The position numbers were made by a program, and so were the translations under genes. A DNA stretch of 64,000 nt from Desulfoluna limicola (GTDB taxonomy: Bacteria > Desulfobacterota > Desulfobacteria > Desulfobacterales > Desulfolunaceae), in assembly GCF_021654575.1 (NCBI RefSeq), contig NZ_AP024488.1, positions 186,001 through 250,000 of the forward strand, read 5' to 3'. This document shows positions 15,822 to 54,716 of this stretch, in pieces (position 1 is the first letter of the stretch; every line of letters starts with the position of its first letter). Under the pieces are notes generated by a model. That model did not search any database. It saw only the letters and a list, made by a program, of their open reading frames with translations, and had not been told where the DNA came from.

Positions 15822-15850
15822 TCGAGGTGGCCCGCCTCGCCGCCGGAGGC
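15822..15850 (+). repeat. Chromosomal hairpin repeat, partial copy
   Basis: Hairpin CGAGGTGG/CCGCCTCG followed by CCGCCGGAGGC. Relative to the minus-strand gene beside it, the box comes straight after the stop, as at other gene ends. Confidence 0.65.
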
Positions 15851-15874
15851 ACCCCCGTTGCCCGGTTTTAGCCC

Positions 15875-16831
15875 TTAATGAACAATCCACACCGCCCTGT
15901 CTTCTGCAAGCTGCACCAGTTTCTCCCCCACCCGGCCCAGGAAGAACTCTTCCACGATGGAGTGGCCGCGTCGTCCCACCATGATGGTGCCGTACCCTCT
16001 GTCCTGGGCCTCGGTCACGAGCCCTTCGGATCGGCTCAGGTAGGATTTCATGATCATGGAGGCCACAGCTGCCTTTGGAAAGCCGCATTGAAGGAGCTGT
16101 TCTTCGGCTGATTTCAAGATTGGGAGCATGCGGTTTCGTTGGCCGACCTGGTGTTCCTGCTCCACCATCTGGGGCACGCCCAAAGAGGACTCAAAGGGGT
16201 CTACGGCGCCGCTCATGATGTTGAGTGATCGGGATACATAGCAGAGGTGCACTCGCTCGACCCTACGGGTGATCACCTGCTCTGCCATGTGCAGGCATTT
16301 TTTTGAGCCTTTTGAGGCATCAAATCCAATCAGGACACTGCTGTTGTCGGGCTGGCCGCCCACGACCACCAAGGTGGTGTGGGTAAGGGCCGATACCATC
16401 TTTCGGGCGCAGTTTCCGAGTGTTGAACCGGTATGGATGCTGTGGCCGACGCGTCCGGCTACGACCATGTCGTAGCCTTTTTTGGACTCTTTGATGATAT
16501 CGCGGGCGATGCCGGTCTCTCTGGGGGCAATCTTGATATGCACCGATGTGTCGGGGAATCCTGACTCCAGAAATGTTTTGCGGGCAGTCTCCAGGCTCTT
16601 TCGGTTTGCCTCAAGTTGTTCTTCCCACCAGCCATTGGCGATGGGGCTTTCAAAGATATTTGTCTCCTCGGATTTGTTGTCCCAGAGGGATTCAGGCAGG
16701 GGGCTCTCTACCAGAAAGAGTGTGATATCACTTGTTTCTGGTTTGATGATGTTGGCGGCATATTCCGCAGCTTTAAGGCCCTGGCCGGATCCATCCAAAG
16801 CGATAAGAATTCGTTGGGTTTGATGTGGCAT
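15875..16831 (-). CDS. Tandem universal stress protein
   Basis: A 318-residue protein with two UspA domains. The first starts ILIALDGSGQGLKAAEYA and ends with the nucleotide-binding GRVGHSIHTGSTLG. The second starts VLIGFDASKGSKKCL and ends GRRGHSIVEEFFLGRVGEKLV. Both keep the G-x2-G-x9-G-S/T-like pattern of ATP-binding Usp proteins. AAGGAG precedes the ATG. Cytoplasmic; by family knowledge a stress or energy-status protein. It is a single-gene unit with its own promoter. Confidence 0.85.
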   Translation of the reverse strand: MPHQTQRILIALDGSGQGLKAAEYAANIIKPETSDITLFLVESPLPESLWDNKSEETNIFESPIANGWWEEQLEANRKSLETARKTFLESGFPDTSVHIKIAPRETGIARDIIKESKKGYDMVVAGRVGHSIHTGSTLGNCARKMVSALTHTTLVVVGGQPDNSSVLIGFDASKGSKKCLHMAEQVITRRVERVHLCYVSRSLNIMSGAVDPFESSLGVPQMVEQEHQVGQRNRMLPILKSAEEQLLQCGFPKAAVASMIMKSYLSRSEGLVTEAQDRGYGTIMVGRRGHSIVEEFFLGRVGEKLVQLAEDRAVWIVH

Positions 16832-16938
16832 CGGGGTCTCCTTGGCTTTGAAACATGGGAGCGTGGCGGTGCTTAAAACATCAAGTGCATGGAATGATCT
16901 ATGGCGCAGGGGAGATGACAGAGAGAGGATGTCTTTAC

Positions 16939-16967
16939 AATATCTCGTGATATCGCTGGAGTGTCAA
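16939..16967 (-). promoter_or_regulatory. Promoter of the universal stress protein gene
   Basis: Minus strand TTGACA (16967-16962), 17-bp spacer, GATATT (16944-16939), about 108 bp before the ATG. Confidence 0.5.
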
Positions 16968-17207
16968 GGGCTGGGTGGGGCATCAGGGGCAGTCTGCAGG
17001 CTTGCCGTTGGTGGCGCGTGCCTCCGGAAGCGAGGAGAGTCACCTCAACGGCTGATTGTCCATGGGGGTTGTCCCTCAGGCCTCATCGCATGGGGGGGGC
17101 GGGCTGCCCCGCCTTAATAGCAGGGGGGTGTCCTGGTGTTTTACACGTTTTGAAATGGTGTGGGTACGGCTTAATGTCTCTGAGGTTTTTGTAACTATTC
17201 AGCTTGT

Positions 17208-17247
17208 GCCTCCGGCGGCCAGACTTTTGAAAAGTTTGATAAACAGG
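17208..17247 (-). repeat. Chromosomal hairpin repeat, inverted partial copy
   Basis: Begins GCCTCCGGCGGC, followed by hairpin AGACTTTTGAAAAGTTT. A close relative is at 54547. Confidence 0.6.
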
Positions 17248-17283
17248 TTCTATAAATGATCCTTAGGTAGTGCGCGAATTAAA

Positions 17284-17367
17284 GGCGGATGTGATTTGTT
17301 TCGAGGAACGAGGGGCAAAGCGAGGCCGCAACCTGTTTTAAGGTTGCACACCTTGCAGCCGTATGCC
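17284..17367 (+). repeat. Chromosomal hairpin repeat, diverged copy
   Basis: GCGGATGTGATTTG, then the conserved CGAGGAACGAGGGGCAAA core and AAGGTTGCACACCTT. The terminal box is decayed to GCAGCCGTATGCC. Confidence 0.5.
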
Positions 17368-17470
17368 TTTGGGGTTGCCATTCTTGATTTGCGGCGGGTT
17401 GGTGGGGAGCAGGGAGTGGGAAAATGTTCAGCGCCCCTTCGGTGAAGGGGCGCTGAGGGTTTTGCAGGTG

Positions 17471-18991
17471 TTACTCTATCGCTTCAAGAACGGACTTGGC
17501 TGCTTTGAGTTGCTTGAGGGCTTCGCTCAGCTCTTTGGGGCCGGGGGCGAATTCCACTGCACTCTCATAGGACGCGATGATGGCATTCATGTCCGGAACA
17601 CTTCCTTCGGAATGAAACGCCTCGGCCTGGGTCATGTAGTGGCCGAAGATCAGGGGCTTCACCTCCTGGAGGGTGTAAGTCTCTTTGACTGTGTCCAGGG
17701 TGACGGCAGAGGGAATGGTGATCATGAGGTCTTTGCCGGTGGGTGAGAAGATACCCTTGTAAATCTGGGTGGAGTGCTTCTTCACCTTGATGAAGTAGTT
17801 GGATGAGTTGGAGGCGCTGGAGAAAACGAGAACCAGTACGAGGGCGCCGAAGGTGCAGGCTGCCACGATGGTTTTCTTGATGGAGGATTTTTTCTTCGCT
17901 TCCGCCTGGAGTTTTTCGTCAGCTTCTGCTTGGAGCCTGGCCTCTTCTTCGGCTTTGCGGGAAGCCTCATCCGCAGCCTGAAGGCGGGCTTTGGTTTCGG
18001 CCTTTACCTTGGCTGCCAGTTCCGCCTGACGTTTGGCTTCTGCCTCAGCTTTTGCCTTTGCTTCGGCCTCAGCCTTGAGTCGGGCCTCTGCCTCAGCTTT
18101 TGCCTTTGCTTCGGCCTCAGCCTTGAGTCGGGCCTCTTCCTCAGCTTTTGCCTTTGCCTCGGCCTCAGCCTTGAGTCGGGCCTCTTCCTCAGCTTTTGCC
18201 TTTGCCTCGGCCTCAGCCTTGAGTCGGGCCTCTTCCTCAGCTTTTGCCTTTGCCTCGGCCTCAGCTTTGAGTCGGGCCTCTTCCTCAGCTTTTGCCTTTG
18301 CTTCGGCCTCAGCCTTGAGTCGGGCCTCTTCCTCAGCTTTTGCCTTTGCTTCGGCCTCGGCCTTGAGTCGGGCCTCTTCCTCTGCTTTGGCCTTTGCTTC
18401 GGCCTCGGCCTTGAGTCGGGCCTCTTCCTCGGCTTTTGCCTTTGCTTCGGCCTCAGCCTTGAGTCGGGCCTCTTCCTCGGCTTTTGCCTTTGCTTCGGCC
18501 TCAGCCTTGAGTCGGGCCTCTTCCTCGGCTTTTGCCTTTGCTTCGGCCTCGGCCTTGAGTCGGGCCTCTTCCTCAGCTTTTGCCTTTGCTTCGGCCTCGG
18601 CCTTGAGTCGGGCCTCTTCCTCGGCTTTTGCCTTTGCTTCGGCCTCAGCCTTGAGTCGGGCCTCTTCCTCGGCTTTCGCCTTGGCTTCGGCGTCAGCTTT
18701 TGCCTTGGCATCATCTTTTTTCGCCGGGGCTTTTTTGGCTGCTGCTTTTGCCTCGGTGGGCGGGGTGGTCTCGCCAGTGTCAGTCGCCGCTACCTTTGGC
18801 TCGTCTTTTGACGCTTTTTCTTTGTTTTTCTTTTTGGTCGCAGCAGCTTTCTTTACGGCTTTTTTAGACTTGGGAGCTTTCTTGGTGGTGGTCTTTTTTG
18901 CCGTTGCCTTCTTCTCCTCCTTAGGAGACCCTTCCTTGGCAGCGGCCTCTTTGGCCGCATCGGTTGAGTTCTTTACGGTTTCCTTCGCCAT
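17471..18991 (-). CDS. Membrane-anchored Ala/Lys/Glu repeat protein (TolA-like layout)
   Basis: A 506-residue protein. The first 90 residues are Lys/Ala-rich like histone H1 tails (KKATAKKTTTKKAPKSKK). A long charged helix follows, built from thirteen 16-residue repeats (ARLKAEAEAKAKAEEE). One membrane segment lies near residue 375 (TIVAACTFGALVLVLVFSS), with a C-terminal domain of about 110 residues that should lie outside the cytoplasm. The layout is reminiscent of TolA or of envelope-spanning rods turned inside out, since the helix precedes the membrane span. AAGGTG precedes the ATG. Function unknown. DNA or RNA binding by the basic head is possible. Confidence 0.65.
   Translation of the reverse strand: MAKETVKNSTDAAKEAAAKEGSPKEEKKATAKKTTTKKAPKSKKAVKKAAATKKKNKEKASKDEPKVAATDTGETTPPTEAKAAAKKAPAKKDDAKAKADAEAKAKAEEEARLKAEAEAKAKAEEEARLKAEAEAKAKAEEEARLKAEAEAKAKAEEEARLKAEAEAKAKAEEEARLKAEAEAKAKAEEEARLKAEAEAKAKAEEEARLKAEAEAKAKAEEEARLKAEAEAKAKAEEEARLKAEAEAKAKAEEEARLKAEAEAKAKAEEEARLKAEAEAKAKAEEEARLKAEAEAKAKAEAEARLKAEAEAKAKAEAEAKRQAELAAKVKAETKARLQAADEASRKAEEEARLQAEADEKLQAEAKKKSSIKKTIVAACTFGALVLVLVFSSASNSSNYFIKVKKHSTQIYKGIFSPTGKDLMITIPSAVTLDTVKETYTLQEVKPLIFGHYMTQAEAFHSEGSVPDMNAIIASYESAVEFAPGPKELSEALKQLKAAKSVLEAIE
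18027..18690 (-). repeat. Thirteen tandem 48-bp coding repeats
   Basis: The string GAGTCGGGCCTC recurs every 48 bp from about 18077 to 18653. Copies differ only by a few synonymous or near-synonymous changes (TCC or TCT, CAGC or CGGC), so the array has been homogenised recently. Confidence 0.9.
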
Positions 18992-19119
18992 GTGATCACC
19001 TTTGAAAATCTCAATTATTTATAATATGATGCCAACTGGTTATTTTCTACTTGTTAACGCACATCTATATAATAAGATGCACTCAATTGTAAACCATTTT
19101 GGTGGAAGTTAAAGGCGAC

Positions 19120-19938
19120 GTGAAAAGCTGCTTGATAAAATATGAATCACTCATAAATGTATTGAAAACATACGATTGCATCGCTGTAGCGTTTTCTGGG
19201 GGAGTGGACAGTACTCTTCTTTTGAAAGCTGCCGTGGATGCCCTTGGACGGAACGTTGTGGCCATTACATCGGATTCCCCCGTCCATTCAAGGCGTGAAA
19301 TCGAGGCTGCAATACAGTACGCAAAATCGCAGGGTATCCATCATATTGTTTGTGATCCCGGAATGATGGATGCTGATGGGTTTGTGGAAAATACAGCGAT
19401 GCGTTGTTATCACTGTAAACAGCGTATGTTTCTGCAAATGAGTAAAGATGTTTCGTCTCTCGGAGTGAGCAATGTAGTGCATGGCGTGAATTGCGATGAC
19501 CTGGAAGATTACCGGCCGGGTCTGAAAGCAGCTGAAGAACTCGGTATCAAGGCCCCCATGGTCGAGGCCGGGCTGTTTAAGGTCGACATTCGGGAACTGG
19601 CAGAATTCTTCGGGCTTGCCGTGGCCCACAAGCCGGCCATGAGCTGTCTGGCTACCCGGATACCCTATGGGGAGCCCATCACCGAGGAAAAGCTATCTAT
19701 GATCGAGGCGGCGGAAAACGCGTTGTATGATCTTGGCTTTCTTCAGTTTCGAGTAAGACATCACGATAGCGTGGCGCGGATTGAATTTTCCCAGGACGAC
19801 TTGAAACGACTCTTTGACCTGAATCAGATGGCCCCGGTGGTAAAGGCGGTGAGGGGAGCGGGGTACCTCCATGTCGCCGCAGATCTTGAGGGGTACGGCC
19901 AGGGACGGATGAACCGCGTCTTGAACGAGGGGGCCTGA
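19120..19938 (+). CDS. larE: LarE-type ATP-dependent sulfur transferase
   Basis: A 272-residue PP-loop ATPase with AFSGGVDSTLLLKAA near the N-terminus, a CYHCKQRMF motif and CLATRIPYGEPI. These are typical of LarE, which donates the sulfur atoms for the pincer nickel cofactor of lactate racemase and related enzymes. The Cys of CLATRIPYG is the residue expected to be the sacrificial sulfur source. I favour the GTG at 19120 because AAAGG lies upstream; GTG or TTG codons seven residues earlier are possible. larB and larC are not in the window. Confidence 0.8.
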   Translation: MKSCLIKYESLINVLKTYDCIAVAFSGGVDSTLLLKAAVDALGRNVVAITSDSPVHSRREIEAAIQYAKSQGIHHIVCDPGMMDADGFVENTAMRCYHCKQRMFLQMSKDVSSLGVSNVVHGVNCDDLEDYRPGLKAAEELGIKAPMVEAGLFKVDIRELAEFFGLAVAHKPAMSCLATRIPYGEPITEEKLSMIEAAENALYDLGFLQFRVRHHDSVARIEFSQDDLKRLFDLNQMAPVVKAVRGAGYLHVAADLEGYGQGRMNRVLNEGA

Positions 19939-19991
19939 AGGTCCATCATTGGGCCTCGCACGTTTGATTGCCAGGGAAGACGGTAGAATGT

Positions 19992-20060
19992 CCACGGGCG
20001 AAGCCCGTTAGCGAATGTAGTCAGCCTGAGGGACGACGGCTGAAAGCATTCGCGAAACTG
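19992..20060 (+). repeat. Chromosomal hairpin repeat, left part only
   Basis: CACGGGCGAAGCCCGTTAGCG, GCGAATG paired with CATTCGC. The variable hairpin and GGAGG box are missing. Confidence 0.6.
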
Positions 20061-20134
20061 GGTGTTTGACGTGTTGCTTCTGCGGTGTATAGTTCATGAT
20101 ATTAGGTGGCCTTGGATGAATGAGGGGGGATGGT

Positions 20135-21056: not shown

Positions 21057-21098
21057 GCCTCCGGCGACCAGGGGATGATCCCCTGGACCCCAGGTTGC
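21057..21098 (-). repeat. Chromosomal hairpin repeat, inverted partial copy
   Basis: GCCTCCGGCGA followed by the hairpin CCAGGGGATGATCCCCTGG and ACCCCAGGTT. Confidence 0.6.
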
Positions 21099-21469
21099 AC
21101 CCGGTTCGCTGGCGCTCACCGGGTGCGAGGGGAGTCGAAGGTATAGATGTGAAAGCTGATTGCGAGTGCACTTTGCCGCGGGCTGCGCCCGCCTCTATCG
21201 TTGTGGGCTTTTCAAGCATTGTCACAAGCTTCGGAGAGTTGTGGGGATGGTGTCGTCACTCCAAAGGTATCGGATTTAATCTTGAGCCTGGAAATTGCCC
21301 AGGGAAGATGTCCATGGTTGGCTGATTGCCCATACGGTCTTGGGGTGCACACATGGATCCCCGGTCACTCGTCATGCAAAGAGTTAAGGGGTTTGTCGCC
21401 AAAGGCCTCCTCTGCACTTCAGGTTCCCCTGACAGCCGGGGAAGACGAAAAGAATGAAGTATCGTGAAT

Positions 21470-21590
21470 CACGGGCGTAGCCCGTCAGCGAATGTGATCA
21501 GCCCGAGGAACGAGTGCTGAGAGCATTCGCAACCCTGCTTTCAAGGTGTTTTTTGCCTAATGTGGCTTCGCCACCCTTGCCGCCGGAGGC
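21470..21590 (+). repeat. Chromosomal hairpin repeat, full copy
   Basis: CACGGGCGTAGCCCGTCAGCG, GCGAATG/CATTCGC stem around the CCGAGGAACGAG core, an enlarged hairpin III containing GTGGCTTCGCCAC, then CCGCCGGAGGC 23 bp before the kinase start codon. Confidence 0.7.
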
Positions 21591-23393: not shown

Positions 23394-23499
23394 GCCTCCG
23401 GCGGCGAGGTGAGCCACCTCGAAAGCTTATTGCCCTTGCGTTTTGTCCCTCGTTCCACGGGGCAAATCGCATGGGCGTTCGGCTCGGGCTTCGCCGACT
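23394..23499 (-). repeat. Chromosomal hairpin repeat, inverted copy
   Basis: GCCTCCGGCGGCGAGGTGAG, CACCTCG hairpin, then CCTCGTTCCACGGG core. It begins 63 bp after the kinase stop codon. Confidence 0.65.
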
Positions 23500-25317: not shown

Positions 25318-25346
25318 TTGACAACCGCAAAGGTGTGGCTTAGGAT
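25318..25346 (+). promoter_or_regulatory. Promoter of the first cobalamin riboswitch transcript
   Basis: TTGACA (25318-25323), 17-bp spacer, TAGGAT (25341-25346), immediately before the riboswitch. Confidence 0.6.
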
Positions 25347-25351
25347 CACGC

Positions 25352-25590
25352 CTGATACTTGGTGCAGCAATGCTTAATAGGGAACGCCGTGAAAATCGGA
25401 GACGGGCCCGCCGCTGTAACCGGGGACGCTTATCGCAACAACGCCACTTTCTTGATACGTGCGGGACAACCGGCTCGAATAAAGAGGGGAAGGCGCGAGA
25501 ACGCGGTTGATCCGGAAGTCAGAAGACCTGCCAGGTGCTATATGATGTCTCGTGGACGGGTTAATTCACGATGCCCCACTGTCTTTCCGG
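25352..25590 (+). ncRNA. Cobalamin riboswitch 1
   Basis: The core GCCGCTGTAACC (25410-25421) follows GGGAACGCCGTGAAAATCGG. The B12 box CCGGAAGTCAGAAGACCTGCC lies at 25512-25532. Both are diagnostic of the adenosylcobalamin-sensing element. A strong terminator, not a gene, follows 170 bp later. Exact ends are approximate. Confidence 0.9.
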
Positions 25591-25794: not shown

Positions 25795-26085
25795 ACACGT
25801 GACCGGGTCCCCTTAAGTGGGGTCTTGCAACACGCAGGAAGGGAATCCCGTGAAAATCGGGAACGGTCCCGCCGCTGTAACCGGGAACTGTGCAGGCCAT
25901 GATGGGGAGTTGCAAACGGGCACGATGCTGTTTGTGGTGCCATCATGAAAACGTCACTGTCGGTCGTCTCCACACCTTTCACGGAGACGTATTCACGATG
26001 GGAAGGCAGCCTTGCACGGGATGATCCGGAAGTCAGAAGACCTGCCCGGCATGAGACGCTGTCTTTCCACCATCTTGTCTTGATG
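25795..26085 (+). ncRNA. Cobalamin riboswitch 2, leader of cbiK
   Basis: The core GCCGCTGTAACC (25871-25882) follows GAATCCCGTGAAAATCGGGA; the B12 box lies at 26036-26056. The distal part holds a hairpin CCACCATC/GATGGTGG at 26077-26099. It lies about 150 bp before cbiK and should repress the operon when cobalamin is plentiful. Ends are approximate. Confidence 0.9.
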
Positions 26086-26234: not shown

Positions 26235-27209
26235 ATGAAAAAAGTGACTGTCTGGATTCTGAGCCTGGTCCTGATGACCTTCTTTGGTTTTTCACATGCA
26301 ACAGCCTCGACTGCACGCCAGGAGGTTGATGCGGTTGTGATTGCCAGCTTCGGAACCAGTTACCCCGAAGCCCTCAAGGCTATTTTGGCCATCGACAAAG
26401 AGATGAGAAAAGAGTTTCCCGAGGCAGAGATCAAGCATGCCTTTACCTCCAACATCATTCGTGGGATCTGGCGCAAGCGCGCAGATGACACCGCCTGGAA
26501 AAAGGCAAACCCGGATACGCCGGCATGGCTTTACGAGGTGAAAGGCCCCTTGTCTACGTTTGGTGAGCTTCAAGAAGAGGGCAAAAAGCGTGTGGTGGTG
26601 CAGACCACTCATATCTATGCAGGGGAAGAGTACCTTGATTTGAAAGCCTATGTGGACGCAGTGGCAGGGATTGAGACCTTGCGCGCCAAGTGGAAGCCCT
26701 TTTCATACATGACGCTGGGGCGCCCCGCCCTCGGCAAAGCCGGGCTGCATCCCGAGTACCATGAAGACATTGAGGACGCCGCCAAGACCCTTGCCGGCGA
26801 TGTGGCAAAAGCCAAAAAAATGGACGCTGTCCTTGTTTACATGGGCCACGGGAACGACATCTTCCCCACCAGCGCTTACGCTGAATTTCAGAAGGCCATG
26901 AACAAAATGTACCCCGAGGTCACCACCATCGTGGGGAATGTGGAAGGCTATCCCGGCCTCGAAGAGGTGGAAGCCGCCCTGACGCACATGAAGGTGACGA
27001 AGGTGTTCATGAAGCCCTTTATGGTGGTTGCCGGCGATCATGCCCGCAATGACATGGCAGGGGATGAAGACGACGCCTGGAAAAGGATTTTCGAGAAGAT
27101 GGGCATCAAGGTGACTTGCGAGCTCAAAGGCCTTGGCGAGAACCCGGCTTGGGCGAAGCTCTACGCCAAGCACGCCGTGGATGCTGTGACCGTGCATACC
27201 GGCAAGTAG
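26235..27209 (+). CDS. cbiK: Exported sirohydrochlorin cobaltochelatase
   Basis: A 324-residue class II chelatase that inserts cobalt into sirohydrochlorin, the first committed step of the anaerobic cobalamin pathway. A cleavable signal peptide (MKKVTVWILSLVLMTFFGFS) sends it to the periplasm, as for CbiK(P) of Desulfovibrio vulgaris. Catalytic and metal-binding signatures are QTTHIYAGEEY, VYMGHGNDIFP and MVVAGDHARNDMAGDEDD. AAAGGTAAG precedes the ATG. It is the first gene after two cobalamin riboswitches. A periplasmic chelatase may alternatively serve cobalt or haem handling; location relative to cytosolic CbiL is an open question in the family. Confidence 0.9.
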   Translation: MKKVTVWILSLVLMTFFGFSHATASTARQEVDAVVIASFGTSYPEALKAILAIDKEMRKEFPEAEIKHAFTSNIIRGIWRKRADDTAWKKANPDTPAWLYEVKGPLSTFGELQEEGKKRVVVQTTHIYAGEEYLDLKAYVDAVAGIETLRAKWKPFSYMTLGRPALGKAGLHPEYHEDIEDAAKTLAGDVAKAKKMDAVLVYMGHGNDIFPTSAYAEFQKAMNKMYPEVTTIVGNVEGYPGLEEVEAALTHMKVTKVFMKPFMVVAGDHARNDMAGDEDDAWKRIFEKMGIKVTCELKGLGENPAWAKLYAKHAVDAVTVHTGK

Positions 27210-27344: not shown

Positions 27345-27414
27345 GCATCCGCTGAGCGCGAAGCGAAGCGGATGCCATATGGGGTCCAGGGGATCATCCC
27401 CTGGCCGCCGGAGG
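27345..27414 (+). repeat. Chromosomal hairpin repeat whose box is the btuC ribosome site
   Basis: GCATCCGC/GCGGATGC stem, hairpin CCAGGGGATCATCCCCTGG, box GCCGCCGGAGGC. The GGAGG is 7 bases before the btuC ATG. Confidence 0.75.
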
Positions 27415-27419
27415 CACAC

Positions 27420-30238: not shown

Positions 30239-31637
30239 GGTGAACCATAATAAAACCGGGTTTCTGATCGGTGGCACCATGAGCGGCAGTGGCAAAACGA
30301 CCTTGTCCCTTGGCATCATGGCCGCGCTGAAAAGGCGCGGGCTTGCCGTGGCCCCTTTCAAGGTAGGGCCGGACTACATCGATCCTGGCCATCATCGCCG
30401 GGTGACGGGCCGCTACTCCCGCAACTTGGATGGCTGGATGCTCACGAAAGAGTATTGCAGAGATGCCTTTTTTACCACCATGGCCGATGCAGACGTGGCC
30501 GTGGTAGAGGGCGTGATGGGACTCTATGACGGGTTCTCCGGCACCGATGAGTCCGGCTCTTCGGCTCAGATGGCCAAATGGCTTGGGCTTCCCGTGATTC
30601 TGGTGGTGAACGCCGCCAGCATGGCCCGAAGCGCCGCAGCCCTTGTCACCGGGTTTCAGAACTTCGACCTCGAACTCGATTTCCTTGGCGTGGTCTTCAA
30701 CAACATCGGCAGCAAGAGCCACCTCAACTACCTCACCGAGGCCCTATCAGCCCACAGCGACCTGCCCTGCCTGGGCGGGATTCCAAGGGACGAAGCCTTA
30801 AGGATTCCCGAACGCCACCTTGGTTTAGTCACCGACGAGGAGCACCTGCTTTCCGGAAAAGAGACCGACCACCTGGCCGACACCGTGGAGGCCCACATCA
30901 ACCTGGATCTGCTGTTGGAAAGGGCAGGGGAGATCATTGCCCCGGCTGAGACTGCAGATGTCCGGGCTGAAACCGAATCTCCGGAACTTAAGATCGGCGT
31001 GGCCATGGACAGCGCCTTCTGCTTCTACTACCCGGACAACTTTGAAGCCCTGGAAAGGGCGGGGGCAACGCTGGTTCCCTTTTCCCCCGTAGACGATGAG
31101 ACCCTTCCAGAAGGACTCAACGGCCTCTACTTCGGCGGTGGCTACCCTGAGCTCTTTGCAGAAAAGCTCAGCGCCAACAAGGGCGTACGAAAGGCCGTCA
31201 AGGAGGCCTCCGAGTCCGGCATGCCAATCTACGGCGAGTGCGGCGGGCTCATGTATCTTTCCGAAGCCATCACCGACTTTGACGGAAACCGCCGGGAGAT
31301 GACCGGCTGTCTTTCCCTGGAAACAGAGATGCAGTCAAAACGCAGCGCCCTGGGCTATCGGGAGATCACCCTGAAAGAGGGCTCTCTTCTTGGGCCATCC
31401 GGCACCACCATCCGAGGACATGAATTTCACTACTCCAAACCGGTGGGAGACCCATCGTGTGAGACCATTTACCGGGTCACACCGCGCATCGATCGCACGC
31501 TTCCCGATGAGGGGTATGTAAGCGGCAATACACTGGGCAGCTACGTCCACCTTCACTTCGGAAGCTCTGCCGGAGTGGGAGAGGCGTTTGTGGCCCAATG
31601 CAGGAACTATAAAAAGCAGCCTCCGGCCACAAGGTGA
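30228..31637 (+). CDS. cbiA: Cobyrinic acid a,c-diamide synthase
   Basis: A 469-residue amidotransferase that amidates the a and c side chains of cobyrinic acid with glutamine and ATP. The N-terminal dethiobiotin-synthetase-like domain has GGTMSGSGKTTLSLG and FKVGPDYIDPGHH. The C-terminal class I glutamine amidotransferase domain has the nucleophile in YGECGGLMYL and His near GSYVHLHF. The last few codons (after NYKKQ) lie inside a copy of the hairpin repeat, so the C-terminus was reshaped by the repeat. Confidence 0.93.
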   Translation: MSSRVNHNKTGFLIGGTMSGSGKTTLSLGIMAALKRRGLAVAPFKVGPDYIDPGHHRRVTGRYSRNLDGWMLTKEYCRDAFFTTMADADVAVVEGVMGLYDGFSGTDESGSSAQMAKWLGLPVILVVNAASMARSAAALVTGFQNFDLELDFLGVVFNNIGSKSHLNYLTEALSAHSDLPCLGGIPRDEALRIPERHLGLVTDEEHLLSGKETDHLADTVEAHINLDLLLERAGEIIAPAETADVRAETESPELKIGVAMDSAFCFYYPDNFEALERAGATLVPFSPVDDETLPEGLNGLYFGGGYPELFAEKLSANKGVRKAVKEASESGMPIYGECGGLMYLSEAITDFDGNRREMTGCLSLETEMQSKRSALGYREITLKEGSLLGPSGTTIRGHEFHYSKPVGDPSCETIYRVTPRIDRTLPDEGYVSGNTLGSYVHLHFGSSAGVGEAFVAQCRNYKKQPPATR

Positions 31638-31718
31638 GCCACCTTGAAAGCTGATGGCGAATGCTCCCGGCCTTCGTTCCTCAGGCCGATCGCATTCGCT
31701 GACGGACAGAGCCCGTGA
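31619..31718 (-). repeat. Chromosomal hairpin repeat overlapping the end of cbiA
   Basis: GCCTCCGGCC, hairpin CAAGGTGAGCCACCTTG, GCGAATG/CGCATTCGC region with TTCGTTCCTCAGG core, and a terminal GACGGACAGAGCCCGTGAAC. The cbiA stop codon TGA lies inside the hairpin. Confidence 0.75.
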
Positions 31719-31782
31719 ACAATGGCTGAGATCACACCGTCTCCTTCATTAATACCGAAGGAATAACCAAAACCTGTTTGTC

Positions 31783-31825
31783 AAACTTTTGCAAAAGTTT
31801 GGCCCCCGGCAGGGCCGCCGGAGGC
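31783..31825 (+). repeat. Chromosomal hairpin repeat, partial copy before cbiC
   Basis: Hairpin AAACTTTTGCAAAAGTTT, CCCCCGGCAGGG spacer, box GCCGCCGGAGGC. Confidence 0.65.
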
Positions 31826-32485: not shown

Positions 32486-32609
32486 GCCTCCGGCGGCGAG
32501 GGTGGCGAAGCCACTTAGGCAAAAACACCTTGAAAGCTGATTGCGAATGCACGTTGTCCCTCGTTCCTCGGGCCAAATTGCATTCGCCTTTGCCGCGGGC
32601 TACGCCCGC
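32486..32609 (-). repeat. Chromosomal hairpin repeat, inverted copy
   Basis: GCCTCCGGCGGCGAGGGTGG with an enlarged hairpin, GCGAATGCA/TGCATTCGC stem around CCTCGTTCCTCGGG, and GCGGGCTACGCCCGC at the end. Confidence 0.7.
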
Positions 32610-34923: not shown

Positions 34924-34980
34924 GCCTCCGGCGGCCAGGTGGAGGCACCTGGAAACCATAAGGCGAATGCGCAATGGGTG
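34924..34980 (-). repeat. Chromosomal hairpin repeat, inverted partial copy
   Basis: GCCTCCGGCGG, hairpin CCAGGTGGAGGCACCTGG, GGCGAATGCG. It starts 15 bp after the preceding stop. Confidence 0.65.
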
Positions 34981-35137
34981 TCGGAATGCGGTTCTTATCG
35001 CGTCCGCACTCGCGCGACGTCCAAAACGACGCAGCGGGCGTCACAAATGCAAGCCCATTCGGTGCTTCGGTTTGACGCATGGGAACGATGGTTCGGCTGC
35101 AAGTTGCAAACACATTAGAGGCAACTTCAGCGTTTGT

Positions 35138-35236
35138 CACGGGCGCAGCCCGTCAGCAAATGTGATCGCTCCGAGGAACGAGGGGCGGGAGCATTTGCAA
35201 CCCGCTTTCGAGGTGGCACACCTCGCCGCCGGAGGC
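35138..35236 (+). repeat. Chromosomal hairpin repeat, full copy before cbiD
   Basis: CACGGGCGCAGCCCGTCAGC, GCAAATG/CATTTGC stem around CGAGGAACGAG, hairpin CGAGGTGGCACACCTCG, box GCCGCCGGAGGC. Confidence 0.78.
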
Positions 35237-38350: not shown

Positions 38351-38452
38351 GCCTCCGGCGGGCAGGGGATAAATCCCCTGCACCCCAGGTTCGCGAATGC
38401 TCCGACCCTCGTTCCTCGGGTTGTCACATTCGCTGACGGGCTTTGCCCGTGA
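38351..38452 (-). repeat. Chromosomal hairpin repeat, inverted full copy after cbiF
   Basis: GCCTCCGGCGGGCAGGGGAT, hairpin GCAGGGGATAAATCCCCTGC, GCGAATG/CATTCGC stem around CCTCGTTCCTCGGG, ACGGGCTTTGCCCGT. Confidence 0.78.
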
Positions 38453-38652
38453 ATAACATCGGGGTTATTAAACCTCCTTGGAGTATCCCGAAGTATTTGA
38501 AGCACCGTGGTCCGTAGGGTGCGTTCCACGCACAAGAATGAAGGCGTGAGTATCCCCCTCATCGAGTTATCTCGTTCCTGGGCCGCCTGGCAGCGAGACA
38601 TATACCTTCGGTTCGTCAGGACTGACGTGCCGATGCAACACAGAGTTTTGAG

Positions 38653-38749
38653 GTCGGATGTGGTTTGATCCGAGGAACGAGGGTCAAAACGCATCCACAA
38701 CCGGAACGTTTTTGGTCCAGCTTTTTTCAAAAAGCTGGCCGCCGGAGGC
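38653..38749 (+). repeat. Chromosomal hairpin repeat providing the cbiG ribosome site
   Basis: GCGGATGTGG-like arm with CGCATCCAC partner, CCGAGGAACGAGGG core, hairpin of CCAGCTTTTT with AAAAAGCTGG, box GCCGCCGGAGGC ending 6 bases before the cbiG TTG. Confidence 0.78.
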
Positions 38750-41400: not shown

Positions 41401-41505
41401 TCGGGCGAAGCCCGAGCCGAAGGCCGATGTGATTTGGCTCGAGGAACGAGAGACAAAACGCATCGGCAACCAGCTTTCAAGGTGGCTCACCTTGCCGCCG
41501 GAGGC
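41401..41505 (+). repeat. Chromosomal hairpin repeat, full copy before cbiP
   Basis: TCGGGCGAAGCCCGA (a covarying version of ACGGGC/GCCCGT), GCCGATG/CATCGGC stem around CTCGAGGAACGAG, hairpin CAAGGTGGCTCACCTTG, box GCCGCCGGAGGC. Confidence 0.78.
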
Positions 41506-43610: not shown

Positions 43611-43680
43611 GCCTCCGGCGGCGAGGTGAGCCACCTCGAAAGCATATTGCAGCCGCCTTCGGCTCGGGCTTCGCCCGACT
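43611..43680 (-). repeat. Chromosomal hairpin repeat, inverted copy after cobU
   Basis: GCCTCCGGCGG, hairpin CGAGGTGAGCCACCTCG, then a GGCTCGGGCTTCGCCCGA arm. It starts 16 bp after the stop. Confidence 0.7.
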
Positions 43681-44702: not shown

Positions 44703-44785
44703 GCGAATGCAATTTGGCCCGAGGAACGAGGGGCAAAATGCATTCGCAATTAGCTTTCGAGGTGGCTCACCTCGCCGCCGGAGGC
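44703..44785 (+). repeat. Chromosomal hairpin repeat before cobD
   Basis: GCGAATGCA/TGCATTCGC stem around CCCGAGGAACGAGGGGC, hairpin CGAGGTGGCTCACCTCG, box GCCGCCGGAGGC. Here the next start is 97 bp away and has its own AAGGAG. Confidence 0.75.
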
Positions 44786-45975: not shown

Positions 45976-45999
45976 GCCTCCGGCGGCGAGGTGGGCGAG
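45976..45999 (-). repeat. Chromosomal hairpin repeat fragment after cobD
   Basis: GCCTCCGGCGG followed by CGAGGTGGGCGAG; the rest is lost. Confidence 0.5.
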
Positions 46000-48130: not shown

Positions 48131-48213
48131 GCGGATGTGATTTGACCCGAGGAACGAGGGGCAAAACGCATCCGCAAGCTGCTTTCGAGGTGGCACACCT
48201 CGCCGCCGGAGGC
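48131..48213 (+). repeat. Chromosomal hairpin repeat before cbiB
   Basis: GCGGATGTGA with CGCATCCGC partner, CCGAGGAACGAGGGGC core, hairpin CGAGGTGGCACACCTCG, box GCCGCCGGAGGC. Confidence 0.75.
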
Positions 48214-50521: not shown

Positions 50522-52015
50522 ATGATCATACTGAAAAGTGCCGATCTGTCCCGACGACGATTTACCAACATCGTGGTACCGGTCTGTGAAAAGAAATCCG
50601 TAACCTCTGAGGCCAAGCTGGTGGCCCTGGTGGATGATGCGCTCTCCCTTCCCGAGTTTGAGGGCAAGAAAGATGACGCTCTTGTTCGTTACTCCACCGG
50701 TGGCATCAAAGCGGAACGCCTTATCTTCTTAGGGCTTGGCAAGGCCAAGCAGGTGGAAGAAGAGGATCTGCGCAAGATGGCCGCCAAGGGCGTGCGACGC
50801 GCCCTGGAGCTGGGCCAGCCCAAGGTCGCCATTGTAATGCCTGATATCGAGACCCTTAAGATTGACCGGGATCGTCAGGTTACCGCGGTCATCGAAGGGG
50901 CCCTGATGGCCAACCATCTTTATCACCGATACCGTGGGAAGAAGGAGCGCAAGGTAAAGCCATTGTCGGCCATTGAGGTGCTTATTGCCCGTAATGAGGT
51001 GAATCGGCTTCGCTTGGTGGCGGAAAAGGCCGCAGCGGTGGTTTCAGGTTCTCTTCTGGCTCGGGATTTTGTCACAACGGCCCCTATGGACAAGGTGCCG
51101 CAGAAATTCGCCGCCATGGTGGAAAAGAGCTTGGAAGAGGTTGGGGTCACCGTTGAGATCAAGGACCACAAGGAGCTGGCCCAGATGAAGTTCGGGGCCA
51201 TGTTGGGTGTGGCCATGGGCAGTGAGAGCCCGGCTCGTCTGGTGGTGGCTGACTACAACCCCGAGGGAGCCACAAAGACCGTGGTGCTTGTGGGCAAGGG
51301 GGTGACCTACGATTCCGGAGGACTTAACCTCAAGCCCGCCGACGGCCTCAAGGACATGAAGAGCGATATGGCCGGGGCAGCCGCTGTTGCAGGGACTCTC
51401 TACAACGTGGGGCAACTCAGGCCCGATGTACGCGTGGTTGGGGTTATGCCCCTGGTGGAAAACATGCCGTCCGGCAAGGCGCTTCGCGTTGGTGACGTGC
51501 TGAAAAGCCACTCCGGCAAAACCATTGAGGTGGGGAACACCGACGCAGAAGGTCGCCTGATTCTTGCCGATGCCCTCTCCTGGGCTGCCAAGACCTACAA
51601 ACCGGACCTCATGATTGACCTGGCTACCCTCACCGGTGCATGCATGGTGGCATTGGGGCAGGATGTGGCAGGGGTTTTTGCCAACGACGACAAGCTGGCC
51701 AAAGCCATCAAATTGTCTTCGGAGAAGGTGCACGAGCGTTGCTGGCCCCTTCCCATGCCCGAAGACTATAAGGCCATGCTGAAGAGTGATATTGCCGATA
51801 TCGCCAATATATCGGGGCAGCGATGGGGAGGCTCCATCACGGCAGCCCTTTTTCTCTCCGAGTTTGTGGGCAAATCCCGATGGGCCCATATCGACATCGC
51901 CGGCCCTGCCTTCACCCGCAAGGACGGCCCCTACACCCGTCCCGGGGGTACCGGCTTCGGTGTTCGGCTTATCTGCGACCTTCTTTTTGATGAAGAGAGC
52001 GCATTGAAGCTTTAA
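50522..52015 (+). CDS. pepA: Leucyl aminopeptidase (M17)
   Basis: A 497-residue cytosolic zinc aminopeptidase. The C-terminal catalytic domain shows VGKGVTYDSGGLNLKPADG with the metal-binding Lys and Asp, DMAGAAAV, and NTDAEGRLILADAL with Asp, Glu and Arg. The N-terminal macro-like domain spans residues 1 to 170. GGAGG lies 7 bases before the ATG at 50522. A strong terminator follows the gene. Confidence 0.93.
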   Translation: MIILKSADLSRRRFTNIVVPVCEKKSVTSEAKLVALVDDALSLPEFEGKKDDALVRYSTGGIKAERLIFLGLGKAKQVEEEDLRKMAAKGVRRALELGQPKVAIVMPDIETLKIDRDRQVTAVIEGALMANHLYHRYRGKKERKVKPLSAIEVLIARNEVNRLRLVAEKAAAVVSGSLLARDFVTTAPMDKVPQKFAAMVEKSLEEVGVTVEIKDHKELAQMKFGAMLGVAMGSESPARLVVADYNPEGATKTVVLVGKGVTYDSGGLNLKPADGLKDMKSDMAGAAAVAGTLYNVGQLRPDVRVVGVMPLVENMPSGKALRVGDVLKSHSGKTIEVGNTDAEGRLILADALSWAAKTYKPDLMIDLATLTGACMVALGQDVAGVFANDDKLAKAIKLSSEKVHERCWPLPMPEDYKAMLKSDIADIANISGQRWGGSITAALFLSEFVGKSRWAHIDIAGPAFTRKDGPYTRPGGTGFGVRLICDLLFDEESALKL

Positions 52016-52048
52016 TTCACCGACCAAGTTATCCATGTAAACATCGAA

Positions 52049-52082
52049 GGCCGAATTTCCATCAGGAAATTCGGCCTTTTTT
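52049..52082 (+). terminator. Intrinsic terminator of pepA
   Basis: GGCCGAATTTCC and GGAAATTCGGCC form a perfect 12-bp stem with an ATCA loop, followed by TTTTTT. Confidence 0.9.
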
Positions 52083-52107
52083 ATGGGGCACAGTTTTAAA
52101 AAACCGT

Positions 52108-52192
52108 GCCTCCGGCGGAGAGGTGAGTCACCTCGAAAGCTGATTGCCGTTGCGCTTTGCCTCTCGTTCCTCGAGTCAAATCACTACGGCAA
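52108..52192 (-). repeat. Chromosomal hairpin repeat, inverted copy after pepA
   Basis: GCCTCCGGCGGAGAGGTGAG, hairpin AGGTGAGTCACCT, GCCGTTGCGC arm, CTCTCGTTCCTCGAG core. Confidence 0.7.
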
Positions 52193-52322
52193 TAATCTCA
52201 ACATTGTGTTTTTTTTTCCAGCAGTCTTGATTTCGTATCAGAGAGTGATGACCCGGCCCGAAAACTTGACCCGCATTTGTGGCACGTGGGGAAAACAGCA
52301 TAAATAATCCCAACAGCATGCC

Positions 52323-52425
52323 CACGGGCGAAGCCCGTCAGCAAATGTGAAGATCCTGAGGGACGAGGGATTAGAGCATTTGCGAACCTGGGGTCCAGGG
52401 GATTTATCCCCTGGCCGCCGGAGGC
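52323..52425 (+). repeat. Chromosomal hairpin repeat at the end of the minus-strand hydrolase gene
   Basis: CACGGGCGAAGCCCGTCAGC, GCAAATG/CATTTGC stem around CTGAGGGACGAGGG, hairpin CCAGGGGATTTATCCCCTGG, box GCCGCCGGAGGC. Seen from the hydrolase gene, the box comes first after its stop. Confidence 0.78.
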
Positions 52426-52435
52426 ATGTTGGCTT

Positions 52436-53233
52436 CTACGATGCTTTTTTCTCTTTTCGCTTCTGTCTGTAATACTTTTTAATCACCGGAGAGAACCCTT
52501 CCAATTTCCTGAACCGTTGCAATCCTGGCGGGTAGCCCTTGTCGATTTCTGTGAGCATGGCATCGATAATGGCCGGAAAATCAGTGATCTTCTCTGCACC
52601 GCCATGGGCCATGAGGAGGAGCTTTACGTCCAGGTTACGGAGTTTTCCGATGCTTTCCCGCATCTCTTTTTTCATGGAGACGGGGAAGGGCGGGCGGTAG
52701 CCGGTTCCGACCTTTAAGATAACGTCTGCGGCATAGAGGGTTTTGGTTTCGGCATGGTAGAGCACCACATCGTGGGAGGTGTGACCCGGTGTGGCTATCA
52801 CCTGCCAGTCTTCAAAGCCGGGGAGTCTGTCTCCATCATTAAGGGGGTGGTCATAGGCAAGGCGCTTGTTGTAGCAGATCATCTCGAATGGGTATTTGAG
52901 GGTCCAGGCAACAAAGTAGCCCAGCATGGTGTCGATTTTGTGTTGAAGCCCCCCTGTGAAACCGGCGTACCAGCGGTTGATGTCCTTGGGAGCGGCTACT
53001 GGGATGGCGTGGCGTTCGCGCAGGAGATGGGCGCCTCCGGCATGGTCCGGGTGGGTGTGGGATGCCACGGCCAGGGATATCTGGCTCATGGGGCGGTTCA
53101 GACGACGTTTCATGGCCTGCTCTATTCGAGGGACGTCGCTTCGGCAACCGGAGTCAATCAACAGCACCTTGTCATGATACACGGCAAGGTAGATGGTCTC
53201 AATGTAGCCGTCCACGGCATGGATCGTGAACAT
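52436..53233 (-). CDS. Metallo-beta-lactamase-fold hydrolase
   Basis: A 265-residue protein with the HxHxDH metal motif as ASHTHPDHAGGAHLL near residue 60, a second-site ATPGHTSHDVVLYH and DVILKVGTG. A thiolesterase, glyoxalase II-like or lactonase activity is possible; the substrate cannot be read. It is transcribed alone with its own promoter and AAGG before the ATG. Confidence 0.82.
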   Translation of the reverse strand: MFTIHAVDGYIETIYLAVYHDKVLLIDSGCRSDVPRIEQAMKRRLNRPMSQISLAVASHTHPDHAGGAHLLRERHAIPVAAPKDINRWYAGFTGGLQHKIDTMLGYFVAWTLKYPFEMICYNKRLAYDHPLNDGDRLPGFEDWQVIATPGHTSHDVVLYHAETKTLYAADVILKVGTGYRPPFPVSMKKEMRESIGKLRNLDVKLLLMAHGGAEKITDFPAIIDAMLTEIDKGYPPGLQRFRKLEGFSPVIKKYYRQKRKEKKAS

Positions 53234-53284
53234 GTGAAGCCTTCCTTGGTTGGGGTCGACTGTTTAACCTAACAGTTAAAGTTA

Positions 53285-53313
53285 AGTTTAGGTATGGGGT
53301 AGGGTTCTGTCAA
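53285..53313 (-). promoter_or_regulatory. Promoter of the metallo-beta-lactamase-fold gene
   Basis: Minus strand TTGACA (53313-53308), 17-bp spacer, TAAACT (53290-53285), about 50 bp before the start codon. Confidence 0.6.
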
Positions 53314-53355
53314 GACATGTTTATAGCAATACTGTGGCGCCGGTGGTTGTATGGG

Positions 53356-53568
53356 TCAAGCGATAATGCCTTTTTTAGGCGGGGTGTGCTTTTTAGGCTG
53401 CCTGGGTTGAAAATGGAGGCAAGGCTTCCCTGAACTTCTTAAGACGGTGACAGATGGAAGGGTTGGGCCTTTAAAGCCCATTTTCCGACACCCGTAAGGG
53501 TGTTGGTTGTCCCAGGTGATAAAGAAGTGTGTGCAGATTTTGCAGTTGACATGTTTTTGGGTCGTCAT
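53356..53568 (-). CDS. Small cysteine-rich conserved protein
   Basis: A 70-residue protein with CKICTHFFITWDNQHPYGC, then MGFKGPTLPSVTV and SGKPCLHF. This four-cysteine pattern matches a small conserved protein common in Geobacter- and Desulfo-type genomes that is often mislabelled as uracil-DNA glycosylase. It probably binds zinc. Function unknown. No strong ribosome site precedes the ATG at 53568; a TTG three codons upstream is an alternative. Confidence 0.65.
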   Translation of the reverse strand: MTTQKHVNCKICTHFFITWDNQHPYGCRKMGFKGPTLPSVTVLRSSGKPCLHFQPRQPKKHTPPKKGIIA

Positions 53569-53671
53569 GGCTATCAAACGTAAAACGGAGAGTCTGTGGC
53601 CCCGATTTTGTTATGGGTTTATGCAGGTCTTCTCTCGTGGTTTTTATCACAGGCAGGGAGGAGGGACAAAA

Positions 53672-53702
53672 CAAAAAAGCCGCTGGATATGAATCCAGCG
53701 GC
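53672..53702 (-). terminator. Terminator of tRNA-Leu copy 1
   Basis: GCCGCTGGAT and ATCCAGCGGC pair with a 4-nt loop; on the minus strand the stem is followed by TTTTTTG. Confidence 0.8.
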
Positions 53703-53715
53703 CCTTGCTTTTAAA

Positions 53716-53800
53716 TGGTGCCGAAGGGGAGACTTGAACTCCCACGGGTTGCCCCACACGGCCCTCAACCGTGCGCGTCTACCAATTCCACCACTTCGGC
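53716..53800 (-). tRNA. tRNA-Leu (GAG), copy 1
   Basis: 85 nt with a long variable arm, acceptor GCCGAAG/CTTCGGC, anticodon loop TTGAGGG giving GAG, encoded CCA. It differs from copies 2 and 3 by one base in the variable arm (GGTTGCCCC instead of GGTCGCCCC in plus-strand reading). Confidence 0.93.
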
Positions 53801-53813
53801 AAAATGTGTGAGC

Positions 53814-53842
53814 GTTATAGCATCGGTTACGGGGTTGATCAA
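53814..53842 (-). promoter_or_regulatory. Promoter of tRNA-Leu copy 1
   Basis: Minus strand TTGATC (53842-53837), 17-bp spacer, TATAAC (53819-53814). Confidence 0.65.
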
Positions 53843-53943
53843 GGGTTTTTGATGGGGGAGGGGGCAGCTTTTTTCTGAGGCTGCCCTTAAAGCCTGGAAT
53901 GACAGAAATGTTCTTTCGGATGTTACGGATTTGGCGAGGGGTT

Positions 53944-53954
53944 GCCTCCGGCGC
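53944..53954 (-). repeat. Isolated repeat box
   Basis: GCCTCCGGCGC, a remnant of the chromosomal repeat between tRNA copies 1 and 2. Confidence 0.35.
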
Positions 53955-54062
53955 ATGAGTGTCATGTTCAAATCAGGTTCACTTATTCCTGAACCTGTTT
54001 ACGGGCTGATTGCATTCGTTGGCGCTTCATGGTTGAGGGCTGTTGGCTGTGGTGGGGGGGGT

Positions 54063-54100
54063 AAAAAACAAAAACCCCCTTGCCGTTTCCAGCAAGGGGG
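54063..54100 (-). terminator. Terminator of tRNA-Leu copy 2
   Basis: CCCCCTTGC/GCAAGGGGG stem; on the minus strand TTTTTGTTTTTT follows. Nearly identical to the one after copy 3. Confidence 0.82.
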
Positions 54101-54111
54101 TTGTCATCAAA

Positions 54112-54196
54112 TGGTGCCGAAGGGGAGACTTGAACTCCCACGGGTCGCCCCACACGGCCCTCAACCGTGCGCGTCTACCAATTCCACCACTTCGGC
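54112..54196 (-). tRNA. tRNA-Leu (GAG), copy 2
   Basis: Identical to copy 3 and one base different from copy 1; same anticodon GAG and encoded CCA. Confidence 0.93.
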
Positions 54197-54209
54197 AAAA
54201 GATGAATGC

Positions 54210-54238
54210 TTTATAGCGCCGGATTGTGGGTTGATCAA
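54210..54238 (-). promoter_or_regulatory. Promoter of tRNA-Leu copy 2
   Basis: Minus strand TTGATC (54238-54233), 17-bp spacer, TATAAA (54215-54210). Confidence 0.65.
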
Positions 54239-54546
54239 GCTTTTTCTTACGCTATTCACCGTTTTTTTCAGTGGGCTGAGGTAAGGGTCTAAAATGATGG
54301 ATGCATTGGGCTTGAAGGCTGTGTGCCGGCCCTTTGGGACTTGTGCCAAAAGCATGACCGGTGTTGGCGGGTGGTAATCTACGGCCAGTGCAAACCGAAT
54401 GGAAGACAACGCGTACATCCGGTTTTATTGGAGGGGGCATGGGGGGATATTTCGACCATCCGGAAATCTGATGACAGAAAGCTGTGGGCGGCAAGTGGTC
54501 GGTAAGGGAAACGTTTTTGAGGGGCATTTGTAACCATTCAGCTTGT

Positions 54547-54597
54547 GCCTCCGGCGGCCCTGCCGGGGGCAAGCTTATGAACATTTGATAAACAGGT
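54547..54597 (-). repeat. Chromosomal hairpin repeat, inverted partial copy
   Basis: GCCTCCGGCGGCCCTGCCGG, AAGCTT hairpin remnants and TTGATAAACAGG, which also follows the copy at 17208. Confidence 0.55.
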
Positions 54598-54632
54598 TTT
54601 CTCAACTTGAGCCGGGGGCCTCCCGGATCTAA

Positions 54633-54716
54633 GGTGGATGTGATTTGCCCCGAGGAACGAGAGGCAAAACGCGTTCGCTACCTGTTTTCAAGGTGGCACA
54701 CCTTGCCGCCGGAGGC
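54633..54716 (+). repeat. Chromosomal hairpin repeat, direct copy
   Basis: GTGGATGTGATTTG, CCCGAGGAACGAGAGGC core, CGCGTTCGC, hairpin CAAGGTGGCACACCTTG, box CCGCCGGAGGC. Confidence 0.72.

Follow-up and report, generated by a model that had tools for sequence, protein, structure and literature searches.

Many of the intergenic gaps in a 64,000-nt stretch of the Desulfoluna limicola genome (NZ_AP024488.1, bases 186,001 to 250,000; the whole stretch is referred to below as the window) hold short repeats that combine a constant 12-nt box, GCCGCCGGAGGC, with hairpins of changing sequence. These repeats probably form a family resembling miniature inverted-repeat transposable elements (MITEs), largely made of two outward-facing halves, whose class with complete ends is likely moved in trans by an IS66-type DDE transposase. 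The copies of that class, bounded by terminal inverted repeats (TIRs), are MITEs; the wider family is judged to be a composite, structure-conserving MITE family, in which the tag and the hairpins are constant and each genus has, by eye, outer sequences of its own. What endures seems to be the shape of the hairpins, not their letters. Nothing on this box/hairpin family was found in the open-licence literature.

The exact box occurs 1,558 times in the D. limicola genome (6,263,790 bp, single contig), 780 times on the forward and 778 times on the reverse strand, and the reversed-box control has no exact match in the whole genome. The window holds 54 box matches at up to two mismatches (9.4 expected, 54 being reached by no shuffle), 21 at up to one mismatch, and 23 matches at up to one mismatch to a core sequence, GAGGAACGAG (4.3 expected). 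An earlier note on this DNA, made from the letters alone, had described more than twenty copies sharing a layout, which these counts confirm. A genome sample of 864 kb (out of 6.26 Mb), made up of the window and 40 stretches of 20 kb taken at even spacing, contains 336 boxes at up to one mismatch, and the 95 bp on the inner side of the boxes account for about 3.9% of the sampled DNA. In this sample, 87 of the 122 neighbouring box pairs less than 700 bp apart face outward, inverted doublets being the unit, as in repetitive extragenic palindromic (REP) sequences and their doublets (REPINs). Read outwards, the order of a half-element is hairpin I (some copies only), stem II with GAGGAACGA as its loop (many copies), hairpin III, box; the four hairpin III sequences quoted in the earlier note are all present in the window. 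Since the ends beside the box come in several types (CGAGGTG, CAAGGTG, CCAGGGG, CAAACTTTTCAAAAGTTTG with GCCCCCGGCAGG, and GCTTTTTTCAAAAAGC), the elements look like mosaics. Hairpin III encloses a second, smaller hairpin (GTGGCTTCGCCAC, followed by a tail resembling TTTTTGCCTAA) in 13 copies found with one search pattern, and by eye CGTC precedes stem II in copies with hairpin I, some hairpin I loops containing GTAG.

The class with complete ends is represented by 54 elements (58 hits minus four overlapping ones), which end in a 13-bp inverted repeat, GTAACTATTCAGC, and, as a group, have a direct repeat of exactly 8 bp outside; the sets used for these elements, for TIR flanks and for pairs without TIRs also took other Desulfoluna loci or four more D. 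limicola stretches. Identity between the two 8-bp flanks is 0.579, compared with 0.300±0.025 and a maximum of 0.375 in 1,000 shuffles, and amounts to 0.402 and 0.399 at lengths of 7 and 9 bp. It is 0.656 (shuffled 0.309±0.032) for the 36 elements whose TIRs have at most two mismatches, and 0.552 (0.274±0.037) for the 24 elements from D. limicola. The flanks match at all eight positions in 8 of the 54 elements, for example GTTGATTG at locus L006 and TTTGTGCC at L020, and at six or more positions in 22. Elements measure 127-418 bp, 46 of them 179-259 bp, a cut of 120-520 bp being built into the search and coding capacity being judged from size. Terminal inverted repeats and a short, non-coding body, as in MITEs, are thus accompanied by a fixed-length target duplication of 8 bp, the latter in the class bearing the terminal sequence TIR1, GCTGAATAGTTAC, only. 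Of 664 boxes, 175 have TIR1 no more than 90 bp to their outside, as against 1.3% of random windows; two loci of Desulfoluna sp. Pyr_d60_bin26 overlap (L096 and L156), so that this count may include a few duplicate rows, but neither locus contributed to the 54 elements. The window itself contains one complete element of 212 bp (54530..54741, GTAACCATTCAGC ... GCTGAATAATTAC) between target repeats GGGCATTT (54522..54529, plus strand) and GAGCTTTT (54742..54749, plus strand) that match at 6/8 positions. Two outward boxes lie within it, one with a type C end, GCCCCCGGCAGG standing before the box (54547..54558, minus strand), and one with the end hairpin CAAGGTG/CACCTTG (54705..54716, plus strand).

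Elements also come and go between species. In a scripted comparison, D. butyratoxydans MSL71 lacks the element at 8 of 15 comparable gaps that bear one in D. limicola, D. spongiiphila AA1 at 9 of 14, and Desulfoluna sp. Pyr_d60_bin26 at 3 of 4; two gaps show the reverse pattern. Inspection by eye corrects two of the calls: the 20.9-kb gap of D. butyratoxydans does hold an element, missed since the D. limicola frame starts inside it, and the 32.5-kb gap of D. spongiiphila retains a degenerate remnant. About half of the comparable orthologous gaps are without element in the two best-covered relatives. Clean empty sites, with next to no gap in either relative, are those at 31.6 and 34.9 kb: the pair at 31619..31825, whose left box is degenerate, is missing from the orthologous gap of both, and the gap of the outward pair at 34924..35236 is empty (about 25 bp) in both. 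The left half of the outward pair at 38351..38749 is shared with both relatives; the gap that corresponds to the box at 23394..23405 (minus strand) has neither box nor core in D. butyratoxydans, D. spongiiphila and Pyr_d60_bin26, and the one orthologous to the box at 43611..43622 (minus strand) measures 0 bp in the first two. Mobility, which the earlier note had raised as one possibility, is supported by this turnover and by the 8-bp target duplications of one class.

An 8-bp duplication together with terminal inverted repeats is the footprint of a DDE-type transposase. Two IS66-type copies of Pyr_d60_bin26 have GTAAGCGTTCACG ends and perfect 8-bp duplications, AAAGAAAC and CATATTTT; the elements, at loci L219 and L221, measure 1,578 bp, are 95.8% identical and each contain an open frame of 476 aa. 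Their ends have GTAA-N3-TTCA and the 8-bp duplication in common with the MITEs. IS66 elements with 8-bp duplications are reported in an excerpt of PMC3281130. Like the IS66-type and other bacterial MITEs, the TIR class is short and non-coding, with terminal inverted repeats, an 8-bp target duplication and no internal transposase; unlike them, the family has 12-nt tags paired a second time inside the ends, as well as hairpins that covary, most of its boxes are without TIR1, and no identical autonomous partner was found.

Several points weigh against a source of the IS66 type. Duplications of 8 bp are not unique to it, since one IS6 and one IS21 element with 8 bp are reported in the same excerpt (PMC3281130). 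The two sets of ends share only GTAA-N3-TTCA and differ elsewhere, and no IS66-type copy with an identical GTAACTATTCAGC end was found in the 1.7-Mb set. Among six Desulfoluna genomes searched, full-length IS66 matches occur only in Pyr_d60_bin26; D. limicola has one short match (PF03050) only, for which IS66 is rejected as a resident source there, and five of seven relatives have none at E 0.001. A GTAACTACTCACAC sequence, possibly the end of that element, lies near the short match of D. limicola (locus L143). About three quarters of the boxes (489 of 664) have no recognisable TIR1, the flanks of 32 of the 54 TIR elements match at fewer than six of eight bases, and 95 box pairs without TIR1 show no clean target duplication, their best z of 4.8, at an odd offset among thousands of combinations, being taken as noise. 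Finally, by eye the same box core has other outer sequences in genomes G006 and G007, so the box cannot owe its presence to TIR1 in every genome. The search for an autonomous partner gave no TIR1-bounded unit of 0.7-3.5 kb with matching flanks in the 1.7-Mb set, and no transposase was recognised by eye, without family search, in the 18 box-bounded intervals of 0.7-5 kb of the genome sample, whose proteins read as housekeeping or unassigned ones; both are as expected for non-autonomous units.

Two observations concern the surroundings of boxes. In G006 (loci L160-L188), box elements have by eye outer repeats of the CTGAAG(G/A)ACACGAAG type in place of TIR1, and a one-sided outer motif, CTTTAACCATAGAAGG, is found in 51 of 664 box flanks of the Desulfoluna set, 41 of which start 10-19 bp outside the box. 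A direct repeat around box plus hairpin III is not significant (3.37 matches compared with 3.27±0.06; 105 of 2,000 shuffles as high).

Taken together, the proposed course of events is the following. Each half ends in the 12-nt tag, next to a hairpin that changes in sequence but stays paired; an IS66-type transposase is the likely mover of the class with complete ends, as the similar ends and the 8-bp duplication in congener copies suggest; boxes without a TIR1 end may be eroded, recombined or separately spread relatives; and the hairpins would persist because, as the elements spread, they fold while the DNA is single-stranded (or in RNA). Such a course requires no function for the host.

The pairing of the stems, which the earlier note had read from compensatory changes as a constraint on structure, is maintained well above chance. 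In 105 copies taken with no pairing filter, 81.7% of positions are paired in register, as opposed to 32-43% when the arms are slid and 55.7±0.8% when shuffled; in the 42 copies below 80% identity, 79.9% are paired (53.6±1.3%), with 195 double-change cells (71±6). In 43 aligned halves, made up of 39 out of 40 chosen for length and diversity and of four further window copies, pairing reaches 90.8% (74.5±0.8% shuffled), both-side changes number 124 (29.5±4.6), and the covariation score is 0.454 (0.147±0.011, and at most 0.099 when slid). Covariation is strong and withstands the check that the earlier note had set for it. The stems that covary here are parts of mobile DNA, a warning that covariation is not by itself proof of a functional RNA.

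Could the stems be kept without selection? Template switching that copies one arm onto the other would produce perfect stems neutrally, and covariation would then be silent on function. This is a possibility to be taken seriously, if on balance a doubtful one. Stems of unrelated sequence can indeed be perfect (6 of 45 listed copies, pre-filtered on pairing, have all 18 positions paired), boxes of other families likewise adjoin perfect stems whose arms are unrelated, and by eye the orthologous copies at 38.4 kb in D. limicola, D. butyratoxydans and D. spongiiphila differ by two inner stem pairs changed on both sides. On the other hand, a weak test gives two signs of a preferred strand, the loop GAGGAACGA and a U.G pair that is common at columns 10-40 (22 of 43 copies), and a weak excess of G.U over A.C runs in the same direction. 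On the box-forward strand, 48 pooled non-redundant copies have 31 G.U and 16 A.C (p=0.04; six of the 18 stem positions left out, and a few rows possibly doubled by the overlap of L096 and L156). All-copy counts in five genome sets are 66:30, 44:7, 11:0 and 8:2, with the GLD-1 metagenome-assembled genome (MAG) reversed at 1:3. Because column composition alone predicts 63:55 and one of the five sets disagrees, the excess is only a hint.

The tag extends beyond the genus. Among 57 relatives counted, five congeners hold 1,252, 41, 775, 612 and 669 exact boxes, two genomes of the same family 95 and 66, and the remaining 50 genomes of the order 0-14 each, except one with 42 against 24 for the control. 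In a phylum set of 395 genomes, D. limicola included, the largest excesses over control are those of G093 (76 against 5) and of one further family, with G097 (97 against 2), G329 (103 against 12), G443 (88 against 8), G267 (64 against 11) and G349 (46 against 6); smaller ones occur elsewhere, for example in G373 (23 against 2). Among the boxes inspected there, a perfect stem of at least 5 bp comes to an end no more than 4 nt from the box in 6 of 7 cases in G097, 5 of 7 in G329, 4 of 8 in G093 and 1 of 9 in G006, where GCCCCCGGCAGG-type sequence or nested hairpins often stand between stem and box. The arms of such stems in other genomes are unrelated, as in CCAAAGGGC and CCAGGGAGGAACCCTTT. The combination of box and freely varying palindrome thus recurs in other Desulfobacterota families. 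For core copies, all of the 64 stretches listed from a scan of named genomes are of Desulfoluna or a related MAG. A covariance model from stem II to the box, scored on the best 150 candidates per genome, gave at least 150 matches in each of five Desulfoluna genomes, 19 in G002 and 8 in G097, whereas no candidate from G006, G007, G093, G017 or G329 matched. From this distribution, it seems that stem II was for the most part added in Desulfoluna to an older core of box and hairpin. A tentative reading, held with limited confidence, is that tag and palindrome form a module of their own, a 12-nt sequence and a hairpin shape read by a putative factor and lodged in different transposon ends (GTAACTATTCAGC in Desulfoluna, others in G006 and G007).

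Alternatively, the repeats could be cis-acting RNAs, either terminators of 3' regions or mRNA stabilisers, kept by transcript-level selection. Copies are found in 200 of the 415 sampled gaps of at least 100 bp, and a box or core in 16 of the 25 listed gaps of that size between conserved genes at 16,831-54,606 of the window, fewer than the "nearly every gap" announced earlier. When genes are predicted with a basic caller written for the purpose (coding fraction 0.68), they contain 25 of 336 boxes, and convergent gaps are the richest in copies (49 of 82, compared with 117 of 374 tandem and 23 of 65 divergent ones). This preference, the median distance of 29 bp for boxes facing a stop codon and the slight G.U excess count in favour of an RNA function. 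However, tandem gaps show no orientation bias relative to gene direction (single boxes 34 vs 25, single cores 24 vs 27), terminator-like sites are not enriched (17 vs 19.9±4.7 in 31-49 kb), and the element is lacking in about half of the orthologous gaps; as for the G.U excess, it meets the objections of composition and of the dissenting set given above. Rfam gave no match worth the name to these repeats, neither at gathering thresholds over the whole window nor in E-value mode, run on 38.3-48.3 kb only, where three chance-level rows appeared. A role as gene boundary or terminator, which the earlier note had raised, is accordingly not supported, in spite of the preference for convergent gaps, and a cis-acting RNA is unlikely. 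The same note had observed that copies after a gene begin with the inverted box and copies before a gene end with it: the layout stands, because the units are inverted pairs with boxes facing outward, while in tandem gaps orientation is random relative to gene direction, an outcome that by the terms of that note counts in part against its reading.

Another candidate is a family of REP sequences or REPINs, moved on folded single-stranded DNA by a transposase of the REP-associated tyrosine transposase (RAYT) type (Y1, HUH). Like REPINs and bacterial interspersed mosaic elements (BIMEs), the repeats are extragenic, mosaic, numerous and arranged as inverted pairs of tagged hairpins with compensatory changes, which an excerpt of PMC3116915 also describes for REPIN spacers. 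Y1 (RAYT-like) genes are present in all six Desulfoluna genomes searched. Of the six matches in D. limicola, L044 has one box, and L042 (5764326-5767631, with a RAYT-like gene on the minus strand by eye) is flanked by box elements on the 5' side and, on the 3' side, by a hairpin III that lacks an intact box, which may be chance; in G007 about 70 bp, and in G006 about 290 bp, separate a Y1 match from a box. By contrast, L041, L043 and L045 have no box within 1.5 kb, L046 has only one at two mismatches, none of 30 fetched Y1 loci (74 kb) in G006, G007, G093 and G329 holds an exact box, and G097, G443, G267 and G349, four of eight other box-rich genomes, contain 46-97 boxes and no PF01797 match at E 0.001. 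The 8-bp target duplications are not expected of a Y1/HUH mechanism. RAYT was thus rejected as the source, L042, L044 and the single matches of G006 and G007 being the exceptions, and such a transposase is probably not the mover of these repeats; a RAYT-driven REP/BIME unit, one of the possibilities first put forward, is improbable, as RAYT genes flanked by the repeats were not the rule at these loci.

In comparison with known repeats, the tag is a constant 12 nt where REPINs and BIMEs have GTAG, and one class has 8-bp duplications. Loci L043, L046, L047 (the same gene as L045) and L049 carry GGGGACAGGC upstream, fitting the TIRYTs, whose repeats are GGGGWSAS in an excerpt of PMC3733652; the four loci read encode Y1 proteins of 308 aa, and elements of the TIRYT/TIRtron kind, whose repeats are unrelated to the box or TIR1, are thus present in the same genomes. 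The same excerpt mentions CGTC-tagged REPs without known transposase, and the present repeats are likewise palindromic, without associated transposase and, in hairpin I copies, preceded at stem II by CGTC, which may be counted in favour of a REP origin; their constant tag is GCCGCCGGAGGC, present also in copies without CGTC. That the 12-mer is a DNA-uptake or chromosome-architecture signal with the hairpins as by-products is the least credible of all, as its 1,558 copies and 12-nt length resemble uptake sequences but only 25 of 336 boxes lie in predicted genes, the pairs have a conserved inner architecture and one class has target duplications.

The remaining copies of the window illustrate the variety of the family. 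Half-elements form an outward pair at 52108..52425, and another, with a long spacer, at 21057..21590, whose right half (21488..21590, plus strand) comprises stem II, a hairpin III with the nested GTGGCTTCGCCAC hairpin, and the box. Stem II, hairpin III and box also follow one another on the plus strand at 35155..35236 (half of the 34.9-kb pair), 41423..41505 (included in covariance model R1), 44703..44785 and 48131..48213. Other boxes are found at 15839..15850 (plus strand, facing the gene at 15,875-16,831), 17208..17219 (minus strand, with GCTGAATAGTTAC directly outside), 27404..27415 (plus strand, with a CCAGGGGATCATCCCCTGG hairpin, 4 bp upstream of an ATG), 32486..32497 (minus strand, with a nested hairpin in hairpin III) and 45976..45987 (minus strand). 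Where the spacer between half-elements is long, another module, ACATGG(A/C)TYCCCGGTCA ... GCCGGG(G/A)AAGACG, was noticed by eye to recur (21351-21447 and about 15675-15777).

No exact box occurs before 15.8 kb or after 54.7 kb of the window, and these ends hold an integrase of the phage type (13,790-15,274) and, from 58,185 onward, genes of the Mu type, so the observation that mobile elements lack the repeats holds within this window. The tyrosine integrase adjoins a tRNA gene (13790-15448), a likely edge of an integrated element. At the other end, an apparent Mu-like prophage encodes a Mu-transpos_C protein (58185-60401), an AAA protein (60428-61147) and a DUF3164 protein (62355-63041), and contains two type II hammerhead ribozymes recognised by Rfam (63045-63121 and 63919-63983). 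Elsewhere, two consecutive cobalamin riboswitches (25343-25549 and 25803-26063) lie upstream of the gene at 26235, two tRNA gene matches of equal score occur on the same strand about 400 bp apart (53719-53800 and 54115-54196), and the middle of a 506-aa open reading frame (17471-18991) is a long run of near-identical short repeats.

If tag and palindrome are indeed a module, they would represent a structure-defined class of mobile DNA, carried by several unrelated transposition systems and common to distant families of Desulfobacterota. The genome offers a natural collection of closely spaced DNA hairpins that hold their structure with no fixed sequence, together with neighbours that have empty sites. 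Two questions thereby become testable: whether the pairing of palindromes is kept by selection or by copying from arm to arm, and whether extragenic palindromes of high copy number are able to spread without a RAYT.

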